This document shows, piece after piece, positions 49,286 through 63,156 of a DNA stretch of 64,000 nt (position 1 is its first letter; each line of letters begins with the position of its first letter). The notes under the pieces are model-generated. The model did no database searches, was not told the DNA's origin, and saw only the letters and a program-made list of their open reading frames with translations. Made by a program: the position numbers and the translations under genes. Source of the DNA: Sphingomonas donggukensis (GTDB lineage Bacteria > Pseudomonadota > Alphaproteobacteria > Sphingomonadales > Sphingomonadaceae); assembly GCF_023674425.1 (NCBI RefSeq), contig NZ_CP098401.1, positions 1,984,001 through 2,048,000 of the forward strand. The letters are read 5' to 3'.

Positions 49286-49429
49286 ATGATCGAACAGGCT
49301 AATTCGCCGTCGAAGAGCAACGTTTGGGTCGAACCGACCATCCAGGTACTCGACGTTGCCGAAACCGAAGCATCGCCACTTCGCGGCGGCGACGGCGCCA
49401 CGCGGTACGCGGACTGCACCCGCTCGTAA
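49286..49429 (+). CDS. Lasso-peptide-like precursor (47 residues)
   Basis: The leader carries the W-x-x-P-x-(I/L)-x-x-L-D-V-x-x-T pattern of paeninodin-type lasso precursors (VWVEPTIQVLDVAET, residues 13-27). Thr27 would be the conserved -2 residue, giving the cut after Glu28 and a 19-residue core ASPLRGGDGATRYADCTRS. Ala1 and Asp8 of that core are spaced for an eight-membered macrolactam ring, with an 11-residue tail holding one Cys (core 16). The start has AAGGGGG at 49273-49279; an upstream in-frame ATG has no such site. A cyclase-like asparagine synthetase lies 1.1 kb downstream. The call rests on motif and neighbourhood. Confidence 0.72.
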   Translation: MIEQANSPSKSNVWVEPTIQVLDVAETEASPLRGGDGATRYADCTRS

Positions 49430-49580
49430 GACGCGATTTTTCGTGCGATCGCTGAACGGCGTTCGCGCGGACACTGGTGTCGATAGTCGTGGCGATGGCC
49501 CCACCGGGCCGTCGCCTCTACTTTTGTGCGCAGGCGCATGCGTCGGGCGGCACCTGCGATTCGGCGCCGGCGCGCCGATC

Positions 49581-50492
49581 CTACAGCAGGATGAGGTCGG
49601 TCGGCGCGCCCGGCACGACCACCCGGGCTTCGACGCCCAGCCGCCGGTCGAGGAACACGACCTCGCCGTCCAGTTCGTCGCGCACCGACCGGTCGCCATA
49701 AGACGACGCGCCGACGATGATCGCATCCGGCGCGATCGCCAGGCCACGGGTCATTCGGTCCGACACCTTCACCTTCAGCCCGGTCGAATTGATGAGCGTC
49801 CCCTCCAGCGATCCGCAATGCCAGACGGTGCCGTCGGCATCGACGACGATATCATGGCAGCCGTGACCGTCGAGCGTTTCGCGCGCCACCTCTCGCCACT
49901 GCGGATCGAGCCGCACCAGCTCGCTGCGCCGGTTCGCACCCGTAAGGCCGTTGTGCAGCATCACCGCGACCTGTCCGTCGATCACGGCGATGCCGTTCAT
50001 ATGGCGGTAGCAGGCGTCGCCTACACCGGCGGTTCCGGGCGCGATCGGGTGGCGCACGTCGATCGGAGCGCCGTCCAGCGTAAAGCGCGGCACGCACTGG
50101 TTGCGCGTATCGACCACGCACAGCGCGTCGTCGACGACGCCGACCTGATGGCATTGATTGTCGAGGCCCTTCACCAGAACGACCGGCGATTCCAGCTGCC
50201 CGTCGGCCAGTGTCAGCCGGACGATGCGCCCGCGGTTGCTGGGCTCGCTCGGTCGGTCGCAGGCTTCGAACAGATAGATGGCGTCGCGGTGGCGCCGCAC
50301 GCCGAAGAAAAATCCGTGCGCGACACGGCGCACCCGTTCGTCACGCGCGACCGCGAACACGCCTTGGCGCGATGCGACCAGACAATCGAATCCGCGCACG
50401 TCGGTATCGGCCAGCCGTACCGTGTCGGTCGCATAGGCATGAGCCGACATGGCGGCGCGGATACGGCGTTCGGGAAAGCTGGGCGCGGCCAT
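49581..50492 (-). CDS. Beta-propeller-like protein inside the lasso-like locus
   Basis: A 303-residue protein (289 from the ATG at 50450) with no signal peptide. Repeating four-strand units such as VVDDALCVVDTRNQCVPRFT, GIAVIDGQVAVMLHNGL and IVVDADGTVWHCGSLEGTL suggest a six-bladed propeller. It is unusually rich in Cys/His at blade turns (NQCHQVG, ACYRHMNG, GHGCHD, WHCGS). It resembles DUF4915/TIGR03032-type proteins only loosely. It is transcribed away from the cyclase (65-base gap) and towards the precursor. It lacks the alpha/beta hydrolase half of known lasso isopeptidases, so it is not that enzyme. Confidence 0.7.
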   Translation of the reverse strand: MAAPSFPERRIRAAMSAHAYATDTVRLADTDVRGFDCLVASRQGVFAVARDERVRRVAHGFFFGVRRHRDAIYLFEACDRPSEPSNRGRIVRLTLADGQLESPVVLVKGLDNQCHQVGVVDDALCVVDTRNQCVPRFTLDGAPIDVRHPIAPGTAGVGDACYRHMNGIAVIDGQVAVMLHNGLTGANRRSELVRLDPQWREVARETLDGHGCHDIVVDADGTVWHCGSLEGTLINSTGLKVKVSDRMTRGLAIAPDAIIVGASSYGDRSVRDELDGEVVFLDRRLGVEARVVVPGAPTDLILL

Positions 50493-50557
50493 CGCGGCGG
50501 GGTGACCGACCGCGGCGGCGTGGTCAACCACCGACAGCACCGGACGCGCGCGGCGTG

Positions 50558-52315
50558 ATGCGCAGCGGCATCTATGCGCTGGTCGACCTGTCGGACGCGC
50601 CGATCGCGCCGGAGGACGCGCGCGCGATCGGGCTGACCGGCGACGGCGGTCCGGTCGCGGCGCGTGGCCATGATCCCGCCACGCCGGACGCCGTGAGCGC
50701 GGCGGATGACGGCGAGCGGCGCACCATCCTGGTCGGCTGGCTCGACGACGCCTGCGCGCTGGCGGATCGCCTGGGCGTCGCGCGCGACATGCCGCTCGCC
50801 CGACTGGCGCGGGTCGCGCTCGACCGTTTCGGCGCGGATACGCCGCGCGACATGCCGGGCGAATGGTCGCTGTTCGACTGGCACGCGAGCCGCGGCGTGA
50901 CCGTGATGTGCGCCGCCGGGCGTCGCGACATGCTGCTCTACGCGGTCGACGGGCCGCGGGTGGCGGTTGCTCCTGACATCGCCGCACTCGCGCGGATCGA
51001 CTGGATCGGACGCACGCTCGACCCGGTGGGCATGATGTTCACTTACGCGCGCTACGCCGTGCGCAGGCACCGGGGCGACCGGACGATCCTGGCCAGGGTG
51101 CGCGCGCTGCCCGCCGGCGGGTCGGCGGTCATCGACGCATCGGGAACGACGGTGCGCAGCAGCGCCGCACGCGATCCGCTGCCCCTGTGGCGCGGATCGT
51201 TCGAGGACGCGATGGTCGCGGTCGATGCCGTGCTGGGCGCGGCGGTCGAGCGCCGGATGGGTCCGGGGATCACCGCATCGATGCTCAGCGGCGGGCTCGA
51301 TTCGTCGCTCGTCACGCAATATGCCGCGGCGGCGGCGGGCGATCCCGCCCGCCTCGTCTGCGTGACGTCGGCGGCGCCACCGCACAGCGGCCTTGTCGAC
51401 GAACTGCCGTTTGCGCGCATGGTCACCGATCACCTCGGCGTGCGGCTGATCCCGGTCGTTCCGGGCGCGGACGACAATCCGTTTCGCCCGCTACCCCACA
51501 TGCGCATGGACGGGGTCGGGCCGCTGACGGCGATCCGCCATTATCTCGATTCGGCACTGACCGGACAGGCGATCGCGGCGGGCGCGACGACGATCCTTGA
51601 GGGGCAATTCGGCGAATTCACGGTCTCTGCAATGGAGCAGCTGTGGCACCCGCGGCGGCGCTCGATCCGCGCGACGCTCGGGCGGCTGGGGCGGAGCCTG
51701 CTCGCGGGGCGCGCGTCCGCCGATGTCGATCCGCTGTTCCATGTCCGCTTCGCGACCCATCGGCGTAATGCCTTGCCCGACGTCATTGCCGACGCCGCGG
51801 CCCACCCCGCCCCTGCCATATTGGAGGAGCAGCCCGATGGACGTTGGCCGGCGATCGTCGGCCGCGAAAAGGTCGCGGCGATCGGTACTGAGGCTCTGGT
51901 CGGCGGCGTGCGGCAGGAACTGCCGTTCCGCGACGTCGAACTGCTGCGCCTGTTCGCGAGTTTCCCCGCATCCTTCATCGCGCGCGAGGGCATGGACCGG
52001 GCGCCCGCGCGCCACCTGATGCGCGGGCGGCTTCCCGACAGCATCCGCCTGCGTCCGAAGGGGCCGGCCATCTCGCCCGACTACGCGCTGCGGTTGCGCC
52101 GTGCCGCGCCAGCCGCGCGCGGACGCATCGCGCATTTCCGACGGCTGGGTATCGACGACTGGATCGACCTCGACTGGCTGGATGCCGCGCTCGCGGATCT
52201 GGCGGCAGGCACCGGCGACGCTGCCCGCGACAGCCACGAAACGCAGACGACCGCAGTCGCCGCCGAATTCCTGGCCGCGTGGCGTGACGGCAGCGATCCC
52301 GCTTCAGGCGGCTGA
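50558..52315 (+). CDS. Asparagine-synthetase-like lasso cyclase (McjC/LasC type)
   Basis: A 585-residue protein with an N-terminal Ntn-glutaminase-like domain lacking the catalytic Cys2 (it starts MRSGIYALVDL) and a C-terminal synthetase domain with the ATP pyrophosphatase loop SGGLDSS (residues 244-250). Further landmarks are ILEGQFGEFTVSA, standing where AsnB has GxGGDE, and RLPDSIRLRPKGPAISPDY. In lasso systems such proteins adenylate the Asp/Glu side chain and close the ring onto residue 1. Loss of the glutaminase Cys argues against a true asparagine synthetase. The 3' end overlaps the GNAT gene by 12 bases on the other strand. Confidence 0.82.
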   Translation: MRSGIYALVDLSDAPIAPEDARAIGLTGDGGPVAARGHDPATPDAVSAADDGERRTILVGWLDDACALADRLGVARDMPLARLARVALDRFGADTPRDMPGEWSLFDWHASRGVTVMCAAGRRDMLLYAVDGPRVAVAPDIAALARIDWIGRTLDPVGMMFTYARYAVRRHRGDRTILARVRALPAGGSAVIDASGTTVRSSAARDPLPLWRGSFEDAMVAVDAVLGAAVERRMGPGITASMLSGGLDSSLVTQYAAAAAGDPARLVCVTSAAPPHSGLVDELPFARMVTDHLGVRLIPVVPGADDNPFRPLPHMRMDGVGPLTAIRHYLDSALTGQAIAAGATTILEGQFGEFTVSAMEQLWHPRRRSIRATLGRLGRSLLAGRASADVDPLFHVRFATHRRNALPDVIADAAAHPAPAILEEQPDGRWPAIVGREKVAAIGTEALVGGVRQELPFRDVELLRLFASFPASFIAREGMDRAPARHLMRGRLPDSIRLRPKGPAISPDYALRLRRAAPAARGRIAHFRRLGIDDWIDLDWLDAALADLAAGTGDAARDSHETQTTAVAAEFLAAWRDGSDPASGG

Positions 52316-53164
52316 CGTCGCCCGCACGGGACGGCGCAGCGCGATCACCGGCGACCCGTAGCGATCCGGCGGGTCGGCGACGAAGCCCAAGTGCGCATGG
52401 ATCCGCCCGACTGGATTGTCGGCCAGCGCTTCGGTCCACGCTCCCTGGCCCCGCCGGTCGCACACCGCCAGCCACGCGCGCAGCAGGTTCAGCCCGACGC
52501 CGGTCGCGCGAAACTCCGGCAGCACCGCCATATCGACGCCGTAGCTTTCCGGTCCGTCCCAATCGATCATGATCCGCCCGATCGGGCGATCGTCGAGCGT
52601 CGCGATGCGGCGCATCGCGCGGGGATGCGCATGCGCATGGGCGTCGAGCTGCCACTCGGCCTGCTGCACCAGTATCGCATCCGGCAGCCTGTCGGCAAGC
52701 GGCGAGCAGGCGATCCACTGGGCGATCAGGAACGCGCGATCGTCGGGGGTTTCGGCGCGGCAATCGAGCCGCGGCGCCCGCCGCCTGAACGCGACGTCGA
52801 ACGCGGCGTCCGGATCGACCACGGGATCGGGACCGCGGGCGGCAGGCGCCTCGGCACCGCCCATCGCAAGGGCATCGATGCGAGCGCCGCTGGCGGAAGG
52901 GGCGGTGTCGGCAAAGCCCGAGGCCGGTATGCCGGCGGTACCGGTGACGGGGCGAGGATCGCCCGAAAGCTGCTGCGCGACGCCCGGCGTAGCGCCGGGC
53001 TCTCCGGCATCGGCCACGCCTTCGGTGGCGCGCAGGTCGTCGGCGGGACCGCCGGCCGTATCAGTGGCGGCGCGGGCGCTATCAGCGACGACGGCGGTGA
53101 TCGCGGCGGCGTTGGCGGCGGGAACCGTCATGGCCTGCACGCCCCTGTCACCGGATTGCGCCAT
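52304..53164 (-). CDS. GNAT-family acetyltransferase with long N-terminal extension
   Basis: A 286-residue protein. Residues about 125-286 are a GNAT domain (PDDRAFLIAQWIACSPLADR, IGRIMIDWDG, acetyl-CoA segment MAVLPEFRATGVGLNLLRAWL, HAHLGFVADP). The first 115-120 residues are Ala/Gly/Pro-rich and low complexity, with no predicted fold; the true start could be later. GNAT genes accompany some lasso clusters and also the tail-collar/DUF6916 genes beside it, so its substrate is undecided. Confidence 0.8.
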   Translation of the reverse strand: MAQSGDRGVQAMTVPAANAAAITAVVADSARAATDTAGGPADDLRATEGVADAGEPGATPGVAQQLSGDPRPVTGTAGIPASGFADTAPSASGARIDALAMGGAEAPAARGPDPVVDPDAAFDVAFRRRAPRLDCRAETPDDRAFLIAQWIACSPLADRLPDAILVQQAEWQLDAHAHAHPRAMRRIATLDDRPIGRIMIDWDGPESYGVDMAVLPEFRATGVGLNLLRAWLAVCDRRGQGAWTEALADNPVGRIHAHLGFVADPPDRYGSPVIALRRPVRATSAA

Positions 53165-53196: not shown

Positions 53197-53520
53197 ATGC
53201 GCATGGCTACCGACGAGATCCTGCCGCGCCCGATGGTGCTCGAAGAATTCACGCCGCTGCTCGAGCGGGTCTTTCGCGCGCATTGCGTGCCGAAGGACAT
53301 CGATCTGACCTTGGTCGAGGCCTATCCGCTGAAGGATCGCGGCCTCGTCACGCGGCCGCCCTTCACGCTGATCTTCCACAGCGACGCAACGGCGTTGCTC
53401 AGCCCGGGCATCTACACGCTGCGCAGCGGCAGTTTCGGCCCGGCGGCCATCTATCTCGAGGCGACCACCAGGATGCCGCACGCGCCGACAGGACATTATT
53501 ACCAGGCCGTCTTCAACTGA
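53197..53520 (+). CDS. DUF6916 protein
   Basis: A 107-residue protein (105 from the ATG at 53203) resembling DUF6916: a short helix EEFTPLLERVFRAH, then beta strands IDLTLVEAYPL, PFTLIFHSDATALLSPGIYTL and AAIYLEATTRMPHAPTGHYYQAVFN. The family is small and usually encoded beside phage-tail-collar-like proteins, as here (convergent neighbour). Function unknown. It is divergent from the GNAT gene across 32 bases. Confidence 0.75.
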   Translation: MRMATDEILPRPMVLEEFTPLLERVFRAHCVPKDIDLTLVEAYPLKDRGLVTRPPFTLIFHSDATALLSPGIYTLRSGSFGPAAIYLEATTRMPHAPTGHYYQAVFN

Positions 53521-53575: not shown

Positions 53576-54172
53576 TCAGTTCCGCGACGGGAAGATGCCC
53601 TCCACCGCGATCAGCGCGGTCAGCCCCAGATAGGGATTGAGCAAGGGCACCGGGGCATTGTTCCCGGTCACCCCGACCGTGACCGTCCCGGCGACATTGA
53701 CCCCGCCGAGGGCGACCGGGGTCGACGGCGTTGCCGGCGCATAGATGTACGGCAGCGCGTTGGGATCATTGTCGCCATCGATGCCGCGCGCGAGCTGATA
53801 GCCTGCGATCGGCGCGTTCGACGTCCCCTTGATATTGTTGGCGGTCAGCGTCGACGCGCCGTTGGTGAAGGTCGCCGGGTGATTGTGCGCCGGCAGCTGG
53901 GTCGAATTGAGCACTGTCGTCTCGACGCCCGAGATCTGTCCTTCGACAACAGGGGTAAGCCCCGGTCCGGTACCCGTCCCCTTGGCCAGCCGCCCGCGAA
54001 GATCGGGCAGTCCGAACGTCTGCTGGCCGTTACCGCCATAGGTTGTACCAAGTATCGAAAAGAGTGCGGTATTCTGCGCGATGGACAGCAACTGGCCCTG
54101 GCACTTCTGGTAACCGCGGATGTTGAATGTGCCACCGAAATAGACAATCATTCCAATATACGGCTCAGACAT
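53576..54172 (-). CDS. Phage-tail-collar-like protein (MdpB-type)
   Basis: A 198-residue protein whose first half is a tail-collar domain: GYQKCQGQLLSIAQNTALFS, LGTTYGGNGQQTFGLPDLRGR, then the LPAHNHPATF histidine motif. The second half is Gly/Thr/Asn-rich beta structure typical of microcystin-dependent-protein-type (MdpB) members. No other phage genes are nearby, so it is a stand-alone domesticated tail-fibre-like protein, probably exported or on the surface. It shares its neighbourhood with DUF6916, GNAT and sulfotransferase-like genes. Confidence 0.85.
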   Translation of the reverse strand: MSEPYIGMIVYFGGTFNIRGYQKCQGQLLSIAQNTALFSILGTTYGGNGQQTFGLPDLRGRLAKGTGTGPGLTPVVEGQISGVETTVLNSTQLPAHNHPATFTNGASTLTANNIKGTSNAPIAGYQLARGIDGDNDPNALPYIYAPATPSTPVALGGVNVAGTVTVGVTGNNAPVPLLNPYLGLTALIAVEGIFPSRN

Positions 54173-54269: not shown

Positions 54270-55475
54270 TTACTTCCGATTTACTGCGCACGCCTGCGAC
54301 GTGTCGGCGCGCAACCGTTCGAGTTCGGCGTAGGGCGCGGCGGCGTGGGCTTCCACCGCGGCGGCGATCTGCACGGTCACTTCCGCACGCTTCAGCGCTG
54401 TGTCGGCGGTGAAGGATCGTGCGGGATCCTTGGCATCGCGCCCTGCGGCGGCGCGCATCGCGGCGCGCTCGCCCGGATCGGGGCGAAAGCCGAAATGCTC
54501 CGGCACGCCGTCCAGCATCGCCGCGCCGATGTCGCCGTAATGGACCAGCATGCCGCCGCCGAGCGACAGCCCGTCCACGGCGGCGCCCATGATGCGACCG
54601 AGCACCTGCGCGGCATAGTCGGTCAGCGACGGGGCACCGTCGCCGGCGATGCCGGTCACCGCCGGGGGCAGGATACCGGGCACGACGTGGAGGCCGGGCT
54701 CGCGCGCATGCGACACCATCACTTCCTCGGGCTCGCGGTACACGAAGATCCACGGCACCTTTGGAAAGGCGGCGCGGAACAACGGCAGCGACAGGATGTG
54801 CCAGGCATCCAGCTTCAGGAAGAACCGGCGTGCGGTCCCGCTGCGATTGCGACCGAGCGTCGCGACGATGGCGCGCAGGGCCGCAACCTGGTCCTGCAGC
54901 GGCGCGCCCGACGTTGCCGCCCAGCGCACCACCGCGTCGAGCGGCTCGGGCTCGGACAGCACGATATGGTCGGATGACGCTGCCAGCATCTGCGCCGCCA
55001 GCGTCGACCCGCAGCGCGACAGGTGAAAGATCAGTCCGTCAGGCGCCAGCGACGCGTGCGCAGCGGCGCCCCGGACAAGCGTATCGAGGCTGGTGCGCAC
55101 CCGCGTCGCGCGCGCGAACGGGCGAAAGCCGAGGCGCCTCACCGCGTCGAAATAGAAGGGGTCGCTGACCGGCGCCGATCCGAACCACAGCCAGTCGAAG
55201 GCGGGCGCCCCGCCGGTCGCCACCGACCTGGCGGGCAGCCAGCCGAGCGGGGGCACCGCTTCGTCGGAGGTCACCGCCCGCGAAGCGCCCGACCGCGCGA
55301 GCGCCGCAGGGTCCAGGTCGAGCCCCAGTTCCGAGGCGACGGCCAGCAGTTCGGCTGCAAATGCATCGGGGAAGGCGATGCCGCCCAGCCGCTCCTGCAA
55401 CGCCGGCACTTCGGCAGCCGCGTCCAGCACGCGCGCCACCGGATCGTCGCCACCCGCCCCGCCGAAAGCGATCAT
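54270..55475 (-). CDS. Sulfotransferase-like protein
   Basis: A 401-residue protein with a P-loop-like PAPS site LIFHLSRCGSTLAAQMLAA (5'-phosphosulfate loop) and a second element WIFVYREPEEVMVSHAREP (3'-phosphate site), both typical of sulfotransferases. The N-terminal 160 residues are a separate, unrecognised domain. It may transfer sulfate to a protein or peptide, or be a kinase-like relative of the family. The ATG at 55475 was taken because earlier starts have only low-complexity sequence. Confidence 0.75.
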   Translation of the reverse strand: MIAFGGAGGDDPVARVLDAAAEVPALQERLGGIAFPDAFAAELLAVASELGLDLDPAALARSGASRAVTSDEAVPPLGWLPARSVATGGAPAFDWLWFGSAPVSDPFYFDAVRRLGFRPFARATRVRTSLDTLVRGAAAHASLAPDGLIFHLSRCGSTLAAQMLAASSDHIVLSEPEPLDAVVRWAATSGAPLQDQVAALRAIVATLGRNRSGTARRFFLKLDAWHILSLPLFRAAFPKVPWIFVYREPEEVMVSHAREPGLHVVPGILPPAVTGIAGDGAPSLTDYAAQVLGRIMGAAVDGLSLGGGMLVHYGDIGAAMLDGVPEHFGFRPDPGERAAMRAAAGRDAKDPARSFTADTALKRAEVTVQIAAAVEAHAAAPYAELERLRADTSQACAVNRK

Positions 55476-56198: not shown

Positions 56199-56522
56199 AT
56201 GACGACCAGCCTCCTCAACCGTGCAACCGCCGCTCTGGGCACCGTCATCGCGGCGGCCTGGACTACTGCTGCCGCCGCGCAGGAGCTGGCCGATCCGCAA
56301 GGATCGGGACCGATCGTCGGCGCGGTACGCTGGCTGCAGGGGACGCTGCTCGGCACGGTCGCCACTGTCGTCGCGGTGATCGCGATCGCATCGGTCGGGT
56401 TGCTGATGCTCACCGGGCGGATCAACTGGCGCTACGGCGCGACCGTGATCCTCGGCTGCTTTATCCTGTTCGGCGCGGCCAGCATCGTCGCGGGAATCCA
56501 GTCGACCGCCGGCGCGGGCTGA
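56199..56522 (+). CDS. virB2: VirB2/TrbC-type pilin subunit of a type IV secretion system
   Basis: A 107-residue protein with a long signal-like N-terminus (about 1-28, AAAWTTAAAAQE) and two hydrophobic helices (LLGTVATVVAVIAIASVGLLML and YGATVILGCFILFGAASIVAG) around a short polar loop GRINWR. This is the VirB2/TrbC pilin layout. It opens the vir operon, seven bases ahead of virB3. Upstream (56066-56198) should lie the operon promoter. Confidence 0.9.
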   Translation: MTTSLLNRATAALGTVIAAAWTTAAAAQELADPQGSGPIVGAVRWLQGTLLGTVATVVAVIAIASVGLLMLTGRINWRYGATVILGCFILFGAASIVAGIQSTAGAG

Positions 56523-56528
56523 GCGGCG

Positions 56529-56813
56529 ATGAACGGGCTCGACCGCGACACGGTGTTCGTGGCGCTCACCCGGCCGCAGATGTTCGCGGGCGTGACCTAC
56601 ACCTATTTCGTCGCCAACGCCGTGATCGCGACCGAGCTGTTCCTGATTTTCCGCTCCCTTTGGGTGCTGCTCGCGGCGCTCGTGATCCACGGCGTCGGCG
56701 TTCTGCTGTGCCTGGGCGAGCCGCGCTTCTTCGACCTGTGGATCACCCGCGTCAGCCGTTGCCCGCGCGTGCGCAACCACCGGTTGTGGCGCTGCAACTC
56801 CTACCGTCCGTGA
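56529..56813 (+). CDS. virB3: VirB3 inner-membrane component
   Basis: A 94-residue protein with two membrane helices (TYFVANAVIATELFLIF, LWVLLAALVIHGVGVLLCL) preceded by the VirB3 motif VALTRPQMFAGVTY and followed by EPRFFDLW. It docks VirB4 to the membrane. The stop overlaps the virB4 start by one base. Confidence 0.92.
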   Translation: MNGLDRDTVFVALTRPQMFAGVTYTYFVANAVIATELFLIFRSLWVLLAALVIHGVGVLLCLGEPRFFDLWITRVSRCPRVRNHRLWRCNSYRP

Positions 56814-59179
56814 TGCGCCCGGCGCTGAGCAGCGATCCCGTGGTGATCGCGCGCGAGGCACCGGCGGGTCGCCACCTGCCCTACGCCCGTCACGTCGACG
56901 ACCACAGCGTCGCGACCCGTGACGGCATGCTGATGCAGGTCATCCACCTGGGCGGCCTGTTGTTCGAAACCGCCGACAGTGACGAGCTGAACTATCGCAA
57001 GCGCCTGCGCGATGCGACGTTGCAGGCGATCGGATCGTCGCGCTTCGCGGTCTATCACCATGTCGTGCGCCGTCGCATCGATGCCGCGCTGTCGCCCGAT
57101 TTCCCCGACGACTTCTCGGCCAGGCTCGACGCCGCGTGGCAGGCGCGGCTCGCGACCAAGCAGCTGTACGTCAACGACCTGTTCGTGACGATCGTGCGCC
57201 GCCCGCTCCAAGGGCGGATCGGCGTGCTCGACCGGTTGCGAGATACGCTCGGCCGGTCGTCGGTGTCGCCCGCCGCAGCGCAGGCGCAGGACCTGCGCCA
57301 GCTGAACGAGGCGCGCGACGCGCTGCTGGCCGCGCTTGGCGCCTATAAGCCCCGCCTGCTCGGCATCTACGACACGCCGCAGGGTCCGGCGTCCGAACTG
57401 CTCGAATTCTTCTCGACGCTGTACAATGGCGAACTGCGCCCGGTGCTGCTCCCGCTGCAGGACATCGGCGCCTATCTGCCCTATCGGAGGGTCAGTTTCG
57501 GGCAGGATACGATCGAGCTGGCGCCGGCGGCGGGCAGCGGGCGCAGCTTCACCGGCATGCTGTCGATCAAGGACTATCCGGGCCAGACCGCGCCCGGCAT
57601 GCTCGACGAGCTGCTGCGCCTGCCCTTCGAAGTCACCGTCGCCCAGTCGTTCGCGTTCGTCGAGCGCCAGGCGGCGCTGTCGCGGATGAACCTGGCGCTG
57701 CGGCGGATGCGTTCCGCCGAGGACGAGGCGGTCAGCCTCCGGTCCGAACTGTCGAGCGCCAAGGACGAGGTCGCCGCCGGGCGCGCCGGTTTCGGCGAGC
57801 ATCACATGACGATCGCGGTGCGCGGCGATTCCCCCGCGATCGTCGACGAGGGGCTGGCCGAGGTGCAGGCCGCGCTGTCCGACCTGGGCATCATCGCGGT
57901 GCGCGAGGAGATCGCGCTGGAACCGGCGTTCTGGGCGCAATTCCCCGGCAACTTCCGTTACATCGCGCGCCGCGGCCTCATTTCGACGGGCAATTTCGCG
58001 GGGTTCGCGAGCAGCCACAATTTCCCGGTCGGCCAGGCCGATGGCAATCATTGGGGCGAGGCGGTCACGCTGCTCGAGACGACGGCTGCCGGGCCCTATT
58101 ATTTCAACTTCCACCACGGCGATCTCGGCAATTTCACGGTCATCGGTCCATCGGGATCGGGCAAGACCGTCGTCCTCAACTTCCTGCTGGCGCAGGCGCG
58201 CAAATTCCGTCCGCGGATCGTGTTCTTCGACAAGGATCGCGGCGCGGAGCTGTTCATCCGCGCGATCGGCGGGCGCTACGACGTGCTGCGTCCGGGCGCC
58301 GCCTCCGGCTTGAACCCGCTCCAGCTCGAAGACGCGCCCGAACATCGCCAGTTCCTGATCGACTGGCTGGCGGTACTGGCCGGCGGCGCCGACGTCGACG
58401 AGGTCGGACGGCTGAAGGATGCGGTCGATGCGAACTTCGCGCAGCCCCGCGCGCATCGCCGCCTGCGCCATCTGGTCGAGCTGCTGCGCGGCGGCGCACG
58501 GCCGCACGGCGCCGACCTCTGGGCACGCCTGCGCCCGTGGTGGGGCGATGGCGAGCGGGCGTGGCTGTTCGACAATCCCGAGGATCTGACCGACCTCACC
58601 AGCCTGTCGGTCGGGTTCGACATGACCCAGATTCTCGACGATCCCGCGGTGCGCACCCCGGCGATGATGTACCTGTTCCACCGCGTCGAGGAACGGCTGG
58701 ACGGATCGGCGGCGATCGTGGTCGTGGACGAGGGGTGGAAGGCGCTCGACGACGACGTGTTCGTGCGCCGCATCAAGGATTGGGAAAAGACGATCCGCAA
58801 GCGGAACGGCATCGTCGGCTTCGCGACGCAAAGCGCGCAGGACGCGCTGGAAAGCCGGATCGCCAGTGCCATCATCGAACAGGCCGCGACCCAGATCTTC
58901 ATGGCGAACCCGAAGGCGCGCGCGGTCGATTATATCGAGGGCTTCGGGCTGACCCCGCATGAATTCGAACTGATCCGCAGCCTGCCCGACAGCGCGCATT
59001 GCTTCCTCATCAAGCACGGCGCCGACAGCGTCGTCGCGCGGCTGAACCTGTCGGGCGAGCGCGACCTGCTGACGATCCTGTCGGGACGCGAGCGCACGGT
59101 ACGACTGCTCGATGCGATTCGCGCCGAGCGCGGGGACGATCCCGCCGACTGGATCCCGCACCTGCTGGACGTCGCATGA
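56813..59179 (+). CDS. virB4: VirB4 ATPase of the type IV secretion system
   Basis: A 788-residue VirB4. The N-terminal CagE/VirB4 domain is followed by the ATPase core with Walker A GPSGSGKT (about residues 445-452) and Walker B AAIVVVDEGWKAL, then FATQSAQDAL. It powers pilus assembly and secretion. The ATG overlaps the virB3 stop. Its 3' end overlaps virB6 (ATGA). Confidence 0.97.
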   Translation: MRPALSSDPVVIAREAPAGRHLPYARHVDDHSVATRDGMLMQVIHLGGLLFETADSDELNYRKRLRDATLQAIGSSRFAVYHHVVRRRIDAALSPDFPDDFSARLDAAWQARLATKQLYVNDLFVTIVRRPLQGRIGVLDRLRDTLGRSSVSPAAAQAQDLRQLNEARDALLAALGAYKPRLLGIYDTPQGPASELLEFFSTLYNGELRPVLLPLQDIGAYLPYRRVSFGQDTIELAPAAGSGRSFTGMLSIKDYPGQTAPGMLDELLRLPFEVTVAQSFAFVERQAALSRMNLALRRMRSAEDEAVSLRSELSSAKDEVAAGRAGFGEHHMTIAVRGDSPAIVDEGLAEVQAALSDLGIIAVREEIALEPAFWAQFPGNFRYIARRGLISTGNFAGFASSHNFPVGQADGNHWGEAVTLLETTAAGPYYFNFHHGDLGNFTVIGPSGSGKTVVLNFLLAQARKFRPRIVFFDKDRGAELFIRAIGGRYDVLRPGAASGLNPLQLEDAPEHRQFLIDWLAVLAGGADVDEVGRLKDAVDANFAQPRAHRRLRHLVELLRGGARPHGADLWARLRPWWGDGERAWLFDNPEDLTDLTSLSVGFDMTQILDDPAVRTPAMMYLFHRVEERLDGSAAIVVVDEGWKALDDDVFVRRIKDWEKTIRKRNGIVGFATQSAQDALESRIASAIIEQAATQIFMANPKARAVDYIEGFGLTPHEFELIRSLPDSAHCFLIKHGADSVVARLNLSGERDLLTILSGRERTVRLLDAIRAERGDDPADWIPHLLDVA

Positions 59180-60474
59180 GCGCGCCGTGCCCCGGCCTTG
59201 CCTATGGCGATGCGTTCGTCGGCGGGGCGCTGACGGGCATCGACTGCCAGGCGCGGGCGATCGCGGCCTTCGGCTATCAGGCGCTGGCGGCACCGGGATC
59301 GAGCGTGATGCTGGTCGTCACCGGCCTGCTGACGCTGTTCGTCGCGCTGTTCGGATACCGGCTGATGCTGGGCGAAACGCCGGGCGTGCGCGACGGGGTG
59401 GTGGCGATCGCCAAGATCGGCATCGTGCTGGCGCTCGCGACCAGCTGGGCGACGTATCGCACGCTGGCCTATGACGTGGTGCTGGGCGCGCCCGCCGAGC
59501 TGGTCGCGAGTGTGGGCGGCGCAGCGGGGCTGCCGGGCACCACCGGCGGCATGGCCGAGCGGCTCGGGCTGGTCGACCAGGGACTGGCGCAGCTGAACGA
59601 TCTGGGCGTCGGCAGGAAGGACAGCGGCGAACAGGTCATGCGCGTGCGCAACATCGGCGGGCGCAACGAAACCGTGGTCGAAAGCGCGCAACAGCCGGTC
59701 GGCGTCGTCGAGCCGATCGCGCTGGCTCTGGCGCGCGCGGTGTTTCTGCTGGGGGCTGTCGGCAGCCTCGTCGTCGTGCGTCTGGTCGCGGCGATCCTGC
59801 TGGCGCTGGGGCCGGTTTTCGTCGCGTTCCTGCTGTTCGATGCCACGCGCGGGTGGTTCGCCGGCTGGCTGCGCGGCCTGTCGGCGGCCATGATCGGTGC
59901 GTTCGGCGTCGCGCTGGTGCTGGGCGTCGAGCTCGCGCTGGTCGAGCCGTGGCTCGCGGGGCTCGTCGCGCGGCGGGTCGCCGACGAAAGCATTTCCGGC
60001 GCGCCGGTCGAGCTGCTCGCCGCGATGCTGGTCTTCGCGGTCACCATCCTCGGCGTGCTCGCCGCCGCGGCGCGCGTGGCGGGCGGGTTCCGCCTGCCCG
60101 ACGCCTGGAGCCAGGCGCCCGCGCGCTGGGCGGGCGATGTCGAACGCCAGCTTGCCGAACGCCGCCCGGCAACCGCGCCCGCGACCGATCCCGCCGCCGA
60201 TCGCCCCCGCGCCGCCGCGGTCGCCGATGCCGTCATCGCCACCCAGCGCCGCGAGGCCGCCGTCGCCGCCGCGCTCGCCGGTCGTGGCGCGCGCGGGAGC
60301 AGCGGCGGCGCCCCCGCGGCAAGCGACGCGCCCGATCCGGCGCGCCTGCCCGCTGCCGCCGCACTCGCCCGGGACACGCCGGGCGCGACCGCCCCACCCC
60401 TTGGACACGGCCTTGGCCGCCGGACGCGCAACCGCGTATCGGCGAGCGCCGGGCGACGGGACAGCAGACGATGA
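59176..60474 (+). CDS. virB6: VirB6/TrbL-type polytopic membrane component
   Basis: A 432-residue protein with about six membrane helices (for example SSVMLVVTGLLTLFVALFGY, GIVLALATSWATYRT, LVVVRLVAAILLALGPVFVAFLLF) and the VirB6-typical LxALGPxFxAFLLF and FxGWLRGL. The last 100 or so residues form an Ala/Arg/Pro-rich cytoplasmic tail that is longer than usual and low in complexity. It overlaps virB8. No virB5 gene lies between it and virB4. Confidence 0.9.
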   Translation: MSAPCPGLAYGDAFVGGALTGIDCQARAIAAFGYQALAAPGSSVMLVVTGLLTLFVALFGYRLMLGETPGVRDGVVAIAKIGIVLALATSWATYRTLAYDVVLGAPAELVASVGGAAGLPGTTGGMAERLGLVDQGLAQLNDLGVGRKDSGEQVMRVRNIGGRNETVVESAQQPVGVVEPIALALARAVFLLGAVGSLVVVRLVAAILLALGPVFVAFLLFDATRGWFAGWLRGLSAAMIGAFGVALVLGVELALVEPWLAGLVARRVADESISGAPVELLAAMLVFAVTILGVLAAAARVAGGFRLPDAWSQAPARWAGDVERQLAERRPATAPATDPAADRPRAAAVADAVIATQRREAAVAAALAGRGARGSSGGAPAASDAPDPARLPAAAALARDTPGATAPPLGHGLGRRTRNRVSASAGRRDSRR

Positions 60475-61280
60475 CACCAAAGGCGCGCGAGGCGCTCGAT
60501 GCCTATTATGCAGAAGCCGGCAGCTGGGGGCGGGACGTCGCCGCCGAGGTCGCGCGCTCGCGCCGGATCGCCTGGATCGTGGCGGGGGTCGCCAGCGCCA
60601 TCGCCTTGGCCGAGGCGCTGGCGCTCGTCGCGCTGACCCCCTTGAAGACGGTCGAGCCCTATACGCTGCTGGTCGACCGCAACACCGGCTTCGTCCAGGC
60701 GCTCGCCCCGCTCGACCCGGCGAAGGTCGCGCCCGACACCGCGCTGACCCAGTCGTTCCTGGTCCAATACGTCATCGCGCGCGAAAGCTTCGACATCGCC
60801 GCGCTCCAGTCCAATTACCGGCGCGTGGTGCAATGGTCCGAGGGCACGGCGCGGGCGCGCTATATCGCGGGCGTCCAGGCATCGAACCCCGACAGTCCGC
60901 TCGCCAGCCTGCCGCGCAGCAGCGTGGTCGAGACGCGGGTCAAGAGCGTGTCGCCGCTCGGCCCCGACGCGGCGCTCGTCCGTTTCGACACCCAGCGCCG
61001 CGATGCGGGTGGGCAGGCGGGCCCGCTGCGCGCCTTCGTCGCGGTGATCCGCTATCGCTATTCGGGCGAGCCGCTGAAGCTGGAGGATCGCTTCGTCAAT
61101 CCGCTGGGGTTCGAGGTGTCGCGGTACCAGCGCAATGCCGAGGCGCTGCCCCCGCCCGAGGTGCAGGGCACTGCCGCCACGACCGCCGCCGCACCGTCGC
61201 CGTTGCAGGCGGTCGTGACGCCCGTCGCCACGCCGACCCCGGGCGTCACCGTCCGCGTGACCGGGGGCACCGTCCGGTGA
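60471..61280 (+). CDS. virB8: VirB8 assembly factor
   Basis: A 269-residue bitopic protein: cytoplasmic N-terminus (residues 1-31, AYYAEAGSWGRDVAAE), membrane helix at about 32-55 (AWIVAGVASAIALAEALALVAL) and the periplasmic VirB8 domain with TPLKTVEPYTLLVDRNTGFV, SFLVQYVIARESFD and the strand RAFVAVIRYRY. The final 45 residues are a Pro/Thr-rich tail beyond the family core. It nucleates the core complex with VirB9 and VirB10. Confidence 0.95.
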   Translation: MTPKAREALDAYYAEAGSWGRDVAAEVARSRRIAWIVAGVASAIALAEALALVALTPLKTVEPYTLLVDRNTGFVQALAPLDPAKVAPDTALTQSFLVQYVIARESFDIAALQSNYRRVVQWSEGTARARYIAGVQASNPDSPLASLPRSSVVETRVKSVSPLGPDAALVRFDTQRRDAGGQAGPLRAFVAVIRYRYSGEPLKLEDRFVNPLGFEVSRYQRNAEALPPPEVQGTAATTAAAPSPLQAVVTPVATPTPGVTVRVTGGTVR

Positions 61281-61987
61281 AGGCGATCGCGGCCCTCGCG
61301 CTGCTGCTCGCCGCCATGCCGATCGCGGCGCAGGTGCGCCCCGTCCCCGGCCCCGGCGATCCGCGGGTTCAGAAGATCGAGTACAGCGCCGACCAGGTCG
61401 TCCAGGTGCAGGCCGCGCCGGGCTATCAGGTCACCATCGCACTCGGCGGCGACGAACGCATCGAAAGCGTCGCGGTCGGCGACAGCGGCGCGTGGTCGGT
61501 CACCGCCAACAAGCGCGGCGACCATCTGTTCGTGAAGCCCGTGACCGCGGGCGTCACCACCAACATGGTCGTTGTCACCGACCTGCGCATGTACAATTTC
61601 GAGCTCGTCCCCGCTTACGGCCCGACTGAGGCTCTCGCCTTCTCGATCCGGTTCGTCTTTCCCGACGCGGCCAGCGCCACCACCGTCGCCACCGGCCCCG
61701 CACCGGTCGCGCTGCCCGGCGGACGCTACAGGCTGGGCGGGGATCGGCTGTTGCGCCCCGCGGCGATGAGCGACGACGGCGTGCGGACCACGATCGAATG
61801 GCCGGCCAGCGCCGCCCTGCCGGCGATCTATGCGATCGGCGCGGACGGCAAGGAGGCGCTGGTCACCGGCAACGTCCGCGACGGCAGCATCGTCGTCGAC
61901 AGCATCGCGCGAAACTATGTGTTCCGGCAGGACCGGCGCACCGCCTCCGCCGAACGCTACATCCCGAAGCGGAAACGACAGCGATGA
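61277..61987 (+). CDS. virB9: VirB9 outer-membrane core-complex protein
   Basis: A 236-residue exported protein (GTG start at 61277, signal peptide to about AAQ at residue 19) with the N-terminal motif DPRVQKIEYSADQVVQVQ, GGDERIESVAVGDSGAWSV, and the C-terminal VirB7/VirB10-binding lobe (YAIGADGKEALVTGNVRDGS, NYVFRQDRR). It forms the outer-membrane ring with VirB10. The usual small lipoprotein VirB7 is not seen upstream. Confidence 0.95.
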   Translation: MKAIAALALLLAAMPIAAQVRPVPGPGDPRVQKIEYSADQVVQVQAAPGYQVTIALGGDERIESVAVGDSGAWSVTANKRGDHLFVKPVTAGVTTNMVVVTDLRMYNFELVPAYGPTEALAFSIRFVFPDAASATTVATGPAPVALPGGRYRLGGDRLLRPAAMSDDGVRTTIEWPASAALPAIYAIGADGKEALVTGNVRDGSIVVDSIARNYVFRQDRRTASAERYIPKRKRQR

Positions 61988-63156
61988 CGCCTGCCTCCTC
62001 CGGCGATCCGCGGCTGGACCTGCCCGCGAGCGACGCGCACGACGTCCGGCCGGTCGTCGCGACGGCGCCAGGCGGGCCGTCGATGGCGGTCATTGCCATC
62101 GGCATCGCGGTGGCCGCGATCCTGTTGTTCGTCCTGCTCGATTCGCGCCGTCGCGCGGCCGAAACGCCGGCGGTCCGCACGACCGCCGCCGATCGCATGG
62201 CGAGTGCCGGGCGCGACGCGCCGCCGCTCTATGTGCCGCCTGCCCCGGTACCCGTGGAAACGCGGATCGTCGCGGCGCCGCCCGCGAAGATCCCGTTCGT
62301 GCTGCCCCAACCCCCGATCGCGCCGCCGCGATCGGTGCAGCAGCCGCGGCAGCCGCAGATCTTCTACCCGCAGCCGCCGATGCAGCCGCCGGTCCAGCTG
62401 CCGCCCCCGCCGATGGTGCCCGCGCAGATCGATCGCCCGCGCGGTTCCGCCGACCCCGTGCTGGTGATCGACCAGTCGGGCCCGCAAGGCGGCGATGCGG
62501 CCCCCGGCGGTCCGGCTGGAGGCCCCGACACCCAGCGTTTCCTGGCCGGCGCCGACGGCACGCGCGCGACCGCCGCCACCGCGCGCGCCACCGCGACCCG
62601 GCTAATCAACCGGGCGACCACCGTCCCGCAGGGCACGCTGATCCCGGCGGTGCTGGAAACCGCGCTCGATTCGAACCGCGCCGGCTTCTCGCGCGCGATC
62701 GTGTCGCGCGACGTCCGCGGCTTCGACGGTACCCGCGTGCTGATCCCACGCGGCAGCCGGCTGGTCGGCGAATATGCGGCCAATATCGCGCCGGGCCAGA
62801 ACCGGGCGATCATCACCTGGACGCGGCTGGTCCGCCCCGACGGCGTCGCCATCGCCATCGCCTCGCCCGCTGCCGACACGCTCGGACGTGGCGGCGTGCG
62901 GGGCCGGGTCAACACCCATTTCCTCCAGCGGCTGGGCACCGCCATCCTCCAGTCGGCGCTCGATGTCGGCGTCAATCTGGCGCGACCGTCGGGCAGTTCG
63001 GTCGTGCTGGGCCTGCCCGGATCGGTGCAGGGCGGCGGGCTGCTCGGCAACGCCAACCAGCAGCCGCAGCCGACGCTGACCGTGCGCCCCGGCACCAGCA
63101 TCGCCATCTTCGTCGCGCGCGACCTGGATTTCACGGGCGTGGGCAACCCGGAGTGA
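61984..63156 (+). CDS. virB10: VirB10 energy-sensing scaffold
   Basis: A 390-residue bitopic protein: short cytoplasmic region, membrane helix at about 35-52 (AVIAIGIAVAAILLFVLLDS), a Pro-rich periplasmic linker (about 75-150) and the TrbI/VirB10 beta-barrel domain (GTLIPAVLETALDSNRAGFS, LIPRGSRLVGEYAAN, TSIAIFVARDLDF). It spans the envelope and gates the channel. It overlaps both neighbours by four bases. Confidence 0.96.
   Translation: MTPASSGDPRLDLPASDAHDVRPVVATAPGGPSMAVIAIGIAVAAILLFVLLDSRRRAAETPAVRTTAADRMASAGRDAPPLYVPPAPVPVETRIVAAPPAKIPFVLPQPPIAPPRSVQQPRQPQIFYPQPPMQPPVQLPPPPMVPAQIDRPRGSADPVLVIDQSGPQGGDAAPGGPAGGPDTQRFLAGADGTRATAATARATATRLINRATTVPQGTLIPAVLETALDSNRAGFSRAIVSRDVRGFDGTRVLIPRGSRLVGEYAANIAPGQNRAIITWTRLVRPDGVAIAIASPAADTLGRGGVRGRVNTHFLQRLGTAILQSALDVGVNLARPSGSSVVLGLPGSVQGGGLLGNANQQPQPTLTVRPGTSIAIFVARDLDFTGVGNPE

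Follow-up and report, generated by a model that had tools for sequence, protein, structure and literature searches.

Precursor and cyclase genes of a probable paeninodin-type lasso peptide pathway lie about 300 kb from matching processing genes in Sphingomonas donggukensis

Introduction

Can a lasso peptide mature from a locus that encodes a precursor and a cyclase, yet no processing protein? The question is raised by the window analyzed here, a 64,000-nucleotide stretch of the Sphingomonas donggukensis chromosome (NZ_CP098401.1, positions 1,984,001 to 2,048,000). In lasso peptide maturation, B1 binds the leader of the precursor (A), B2 cuts the leader and C closes the ring (PMC9266682). The original prediction, made from the letters of the window, recognized a lasso-like A and C without a B gene and offered two explanations; either B acts from elsewhere in the genome, or neighboring genes replace it. 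The genome (G000) is a single contig of 2,906,096 bases.

Results

The precursor

The 47-residue precursor gene is preceded by a Shine-Dalgarno-like sequence, AAGGGGG (Table 1). The predicted leader comprises residues 1–28, containing W14-x-x-P17 and Thr27 at position −2, and the predicted core extends from A29 to S47, with a putative ring between A1 and D8 and a C-terminal Ser. The NCBIfam paeninodin lasso model NF033524 yields a score of 24.2 bits, which does not reach the 27-bit cut-off, and the precursors of relatives score lower or do not match. Alignment of 13 precursors shows that M1, W14, P17, L22, T27, G34, D36, G37, D43 and S47 are invariant, whereas core position 1 is occupied by A, G, L or R. 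The invariance indicates constraint on the Thr at −2, on the acidic ring residue at core position 8, on the W-x-x-P motif and on the Ser at the C-terminus. Thus, the Thr at −2 and the Asp within core positions 7–9 that mark lasso precursors are present throughout the 13 sequences, and the predicted Thr(−2)/Ala1/Asp8 arrangement stands with respect to Thr27 and Asp36 but not to Ala29, which is not conserved.

Searched with a profile built from the 13 precursors, each of the 18 genomes with this cyclase gave a single strong match, always on the contig that carries the cyclase; G000 has none beyond that of the window. Homologues occurring without any cyclase, which would have spoken against a lasso precursor, are therefore not the pattern encountered. 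Conservation and synteny bear out the assignment.

The cyclase and its neighbors

The cyclase gene is separated from the precursor gene by 1.13 kb. Its product has the conserved SGGLDSS motif and, with the N-terminus MRSGIYAL, lacks the glutaminase Cys2, in keeping with a lasso C protein, an amide synthetase that resembles asparagine synthetase but has no glutaminase Cys. The AF2 model (pLDDT 87.7) has beta-lactam synthetase as its best fold matches, an ATP-using enzyme that closes an amide ring. The identity proposed in the original prediction is supported by this fold together with conservation and synteny. A search of PDB sequences with the cyclase profile returned asparagine synthetases and beta-lactam synthetase, and no lasso cyclase. 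The score against NF033535 is 48.5 bits, far under the cut-off of 525, and that of a relative (L047) is also under it at 57.6 bits; NF033535 is an 'exception'-type model, so that the miss limits naming by this model rather than the mechanism.

The AF2 model of the beta-propeller protein has a pLDDT of 88.6 and Foldseek matches it to NHL/YWTD propellers. A homologue accompanies the cyclase in all of the relatives examined. A propeller is also part of lasso isopeptidases, where it is fused to a hydrolase domain (PMC9266682), whereas the window propeller has no hydrolase attached; our guess is that it is a scaffold. The GNAT and C genes are arranged tail to tail and their 3′ ends overlap by 12 bases. 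The collar gene is doubled in four related loci (L072–L074 and L079).

Table 1 Features of the window locus (window positions) and of the distant block (contig positions).
Feature	Position	Strand	Remarks
Lasso precursor (A), 47 aa	49286..49429	+	Sequence MIEQANSPSKSNVWVEPTIQVLDVAETEASPLRGGDGATRYADCTRS; NF033524 E 2e-5
Stand-alone beta-propeller protein	49581..50492	-	Start 50492 or 50450; homologue in 17/17 genus relatives' cyclase loci
Putative lasso macrolactam synthetase (C), 585 aa	50558..52315	+	PF00733 (Asn_synthase) E 6.8e-20
GNAT acetyltransferase-like protein	52304..53164	-	PF00583 E 1.3e-5
DUF6916 protein	53197..53520	+	PF21880 E 2.3e-17; conserved in relatives' clusters
Phage-tail-collar-domain protein	53576..54172	-	PF07484 E 6e-24; conserved in relatives
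Sulfotransferase-like protein	54270..55475	-	PF13469 E 7.5e-4; relatives' cluster copies 47-54% identical
Complementary block	G000:C1:2,336,263-2,342,390		TPR-2OG oxygenase, 2 HprK-like kinases, PqqD/RRE (B1), methyltransferase, ABC transporter, B2
B2	2,341,947-2,342,390		Gene overlaps ABC transporter gene

A complementary gene block at 2.34 Mb

A whole-genome search with PF13471 identified three B2 genes, all outside the window, which confirms that no B gene is present within it. The search for stand-alone B genes that the original prediction had suggested led to a block that lies ~300 kb from the window genes on the same chromosome and contains a PqqD protein together with one of the three B2 proteins. 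With B1 at 2.339 Mb and B2 at 2.342 Mb, the genome as a whole encodes the B1/B2 pair of a lasso pathway. The block complements the window locus and contains no asparagine synthetase or cyclase. A second precursor of the window family was sought at the block and none was found.

The B2 protein of the block has the Cys, His and Asp residues and matches NF033537 above the cut-off. The profile of the PqqD protein matches TbiB1 and TfuB1, two lasso RREs of solved structure. Both kinases keep the H-K-D-D pattern, as defined in PMC9266682, and the association of a C-terminal Ser with an HprK-like kinase that typifies paeninodin clusters is thus found here as the invariant Ser47 of the window precursor and the two kinases at 2.34 Mb. 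In a B2 tree the block B2 groups with the B2 proteins of clusters and is separated from the other two B proteins that the genome encodes; the support, 89/89, falls under a strict threshold.

Three further lasso-type loci were seen in the genome. Two of them (L012 and L013, at 260 kb and 1.756 Mb of G000:C1) contain a cyclase and a B protein. The other (L015 7603–9854, about 2.5196–2.5219 Mb) encodes a second cyclase with an upstream 89-residue precursor-like ORF ending in KVWTAPQVVKIRAGDAELGANPVIPEGQFGKGS, and has no B gene nearby.

Related clusters

Cyclases of the window type occur in 18 of the 295 genomes of the genus, G000 included, and those of the relatives are 33–45% identical to it. 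In 16 of the 17 relatives, the best match to the block PqqD is encoded on the same contig as the window-type cyclase. Among the 295 genomes, 17 contain both PqqD (E <= 1e-13) and the cyclase, and each of the two occurs without the other in a single genome (Fisher p of about 2e-25, with kinship ignored). In G107, which has the PqqD without a window-type cyclase, a cyclase of a different kind and a pair of collar genes are found nearby. Across relatives, the distances of the block PqqD do not follow those of the window cyclase (r 0.19, p 0.24), although the G000 row has little spread.

In the relatives, the genes of the block are clustered with those for the precursor, propeller, cyclase, DUF6916, collar and sulfotransferase proteins, in some cases together with the GNAT gene. 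In three loci (L072–L074) the kinases, PqqD, oxygenase and B2 form a block exactly between the cyclase and the GNAT genes, the point where C and GNAT meet in the window. The clusters L284, L175 and L176 (Novosphingobium MAG), labeled as outside the genus, likewise keep all core parts together. Clustering is therefore probably the ancestral arrangement, with the split a later change.

Detached B2 genes in other genomes

The distance from the cyclase to the nearest B2 is 3.7–10.8 kb in nine genomes. In G000, the cyclase is separated by 278 kb from the nearest B2, whatever its type, and by 307 kb from the matched B2 of the block. In five other relatives with adequate assemblies the cyclase has no B2 in its vicinity, and the genomes of three of the five contain a single B2. 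In G028 the single B2 of the genome is on the same contig as the cyclase, 323.6 kb away; G108 and G263 each have a single B2, which is not on the cyclase contig although both genes lie far from contig ends; G075 and G077 have no B2 within 90 kb of the cyclase. Contig ends or contamination placed three genomes (G176, G265 and G266) outside this tally. Leaving G077 aside, G000 is the only genome in the set in which B1 is also far from the cyclase. The lone B2 genes of G028, G263 and G265 (L139, L141 and L146) are situated in a conserved neighborhood with no other lasso gene in the stretch examined; by inspection, the neighboring ORFs resemble housekeeping genes, for example of riboflavin biosynthesis and acetyl-CoA synthetase.

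Discussion

The lasso pathway of S. donggukensis looks complete but split in two, because the missing processing genes sit together ~300 kb away. We estimate a probability of roughly 0.83 that the window locus and the 2.34 Mb block are two halves of one paeninodin-type lasso cluster. Sequence comparison shows directly that the two gene sets are separated and complement each other, which precursor residues are conserved and to which families the proteins belong. The proposal that B acts from elsewhere is supported by a block of B1, B2 and tailoring genes that matches the clusters of relatives gene for gene. Against the split reading, the genome encodes two B2 proteins besides that of the block, and a further cyclase that lacks a local B (L015), so that some cross-use may occur. 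The PqqD distances that do not follow those of the cyclase, the modest support in the B2 tree and the low NF033535 score of the cyclase also count against it.

The window locus could instead be a decaying remnant whose block was deleted or moved, leaving A and C genes without a product. The exact overlap of the C and GNAT ends at the site of the relatives' block does resemble a loss. However, the reading frames of the precursor, propeller, cyclase, GNAT, DUF6916, collar and sulfotransferase genes are intact, the invariant residues are kept, and the genes gone from the window persist intact elsewhere in the genome, so we regard decay as unlikely. It is also unlikely that B is supplied by another lasso locus, namely the fused B at 260 kb or the B2 at 1.757 Mb, with the 2.34 Mb block serving the L015 cyclase (2.52 Mb) or an unseen precursor. 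Three B2 loci in one genome, and a cyclase with a precursor-like ORF and no local B at L015, are in line with such an exchange. Nonetheless, the block genes are syntenic and co-occur with window-type cyclases, and L015 is a less likely customer of the block because its nearest cyclase relative in the genus (G072) has its own PqqD and a B2 of another, L003-like type alongside.

That the propeller, GNAT and sulfotransferase proteins stand in for B, the other explanation offered originally, was suggested by the position of their genes adjoining A and C in the window. We consider it very improbable, since relatives carry the same three genes together with B1 and B2; the propeller is present in every relative that has B1, and the GNAT and sulfotransferase genes belong to clusters that contain B2. 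Moreover, none of the three proteins matches a peptidase family.

Under the split-cluster reading, the two halves would be co-expressed and co-operate. B1 from the distant locus would bind the W-x-x-P leader, and tailoring would take place on the linear precursor, with a kinase acting on the C-terminal Ser and possibly also the oxygenase, the methyltransferase or the sulfotransferase. B2 would then cleave after Glu28, C would activate Asp8 and close the ring to the amine of Ala1, and the ABC transporter would export the product. Both the order and the kind of tailoring are inferred. Kinases of the paeninodin type act on the linear precursor, phosphorylating its C-terminal Ser, and 2OG enzymes such as CanE hydroxylate linear precursors with the aid of B1 (PMC9266682). 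Phosphorylation is consistent with the invariant Ser at the C-terminus and with the pair of H-K-D-D kinases. Further groups may be added by the sulfotransferase, GNAT and methyltransferase proteins. The calculated mass of the predicted lasso core without modifications is 1934.902 Da (M+2H 968.458), to which each phosphate would add 79.966 and each sulfate 79.957.

The closest described systems are the paeninodin and pseudomycoidin clusters of Firmicutes, which, like the genes described here, combine a split B1 (PqqD) and B2, a C protein, an H-K-D-D HprK-like kinase and a conserved C-terminal Ser (PMC9266682). In these systems the kinase phosphorylates the conserved Ser, and some clusters include a sulfotransferase gene (PMC9266682; PMC8498205). 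In contrast, two kinases, the TPR-2OG oxygenase, the propeller, the DUF6916 and collar proteins and the distribution over two loci are features of the present system, and its core resembles paeninodin distantly, as the NF033524 score indicates. A lasso cluster with an HprK-like kinase has also been described in another sphingomonad, Sphingobium yanoikuyae, to which the present genes are likened by published description. Its kinase, SyanK, polyphosphorylates the C-terminal Ser (PMC9266682), but it belongs to an ordinary single cluster (PMC8498205) rather than to two loci. RiPP enzymes encoded outside their clusters are known from the citrulassin PAD and from unclustered lanthipeptide proteases (PMC12971885; PMC8960859). 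In those cases one tailoring enzyme or maturation protease is detached, whereas here B1, B2 and most tailoring genes are. A description of lasso B1/B2 encoded apart from A/C was not found in the open literature, which is weak evidence of novelty as subscription papers were mostly outside the search.

Lasso mining tools seek A, B and C genes side by side. The ~300 kb between B1/B2 and A/C, along with the relatives whose sole B2 is off-locus, suggests that seemingly incomplete loci may function. A broader and more tentative proposal, to which we give somewhat less than even odds, is that the B2 of this sphingomonad lasso family is now a trans-acting protein with its own locus, that in G000 not only B2 but also B1, both kinases, the oxygenase, the methyltransferase and the exporter have been detached as one group, and that the obligate propeller is an unrecognized core component of the maturation complex. 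If B2 does act in trans, standard cluster mining would see such lasso pathways as incomplete. The conserved propeller and the TPR-2OG oxygenase are not named as cluster members in the lasso reviews consulted. Because the genome has several lasso loci, the pairing of B proteins with precursors can be tested in it directly by genetics.

The part of the window directly after the lasso genes (56199–63156) encodes type IV secretion proteins, namely VirB2/TrbC pilin, VirB3, VirB4 and VirB10/TrbI. A hydrolase-like ORF of this flank and/or VirB4 also follow the cluster in four related loci (L072–L075).
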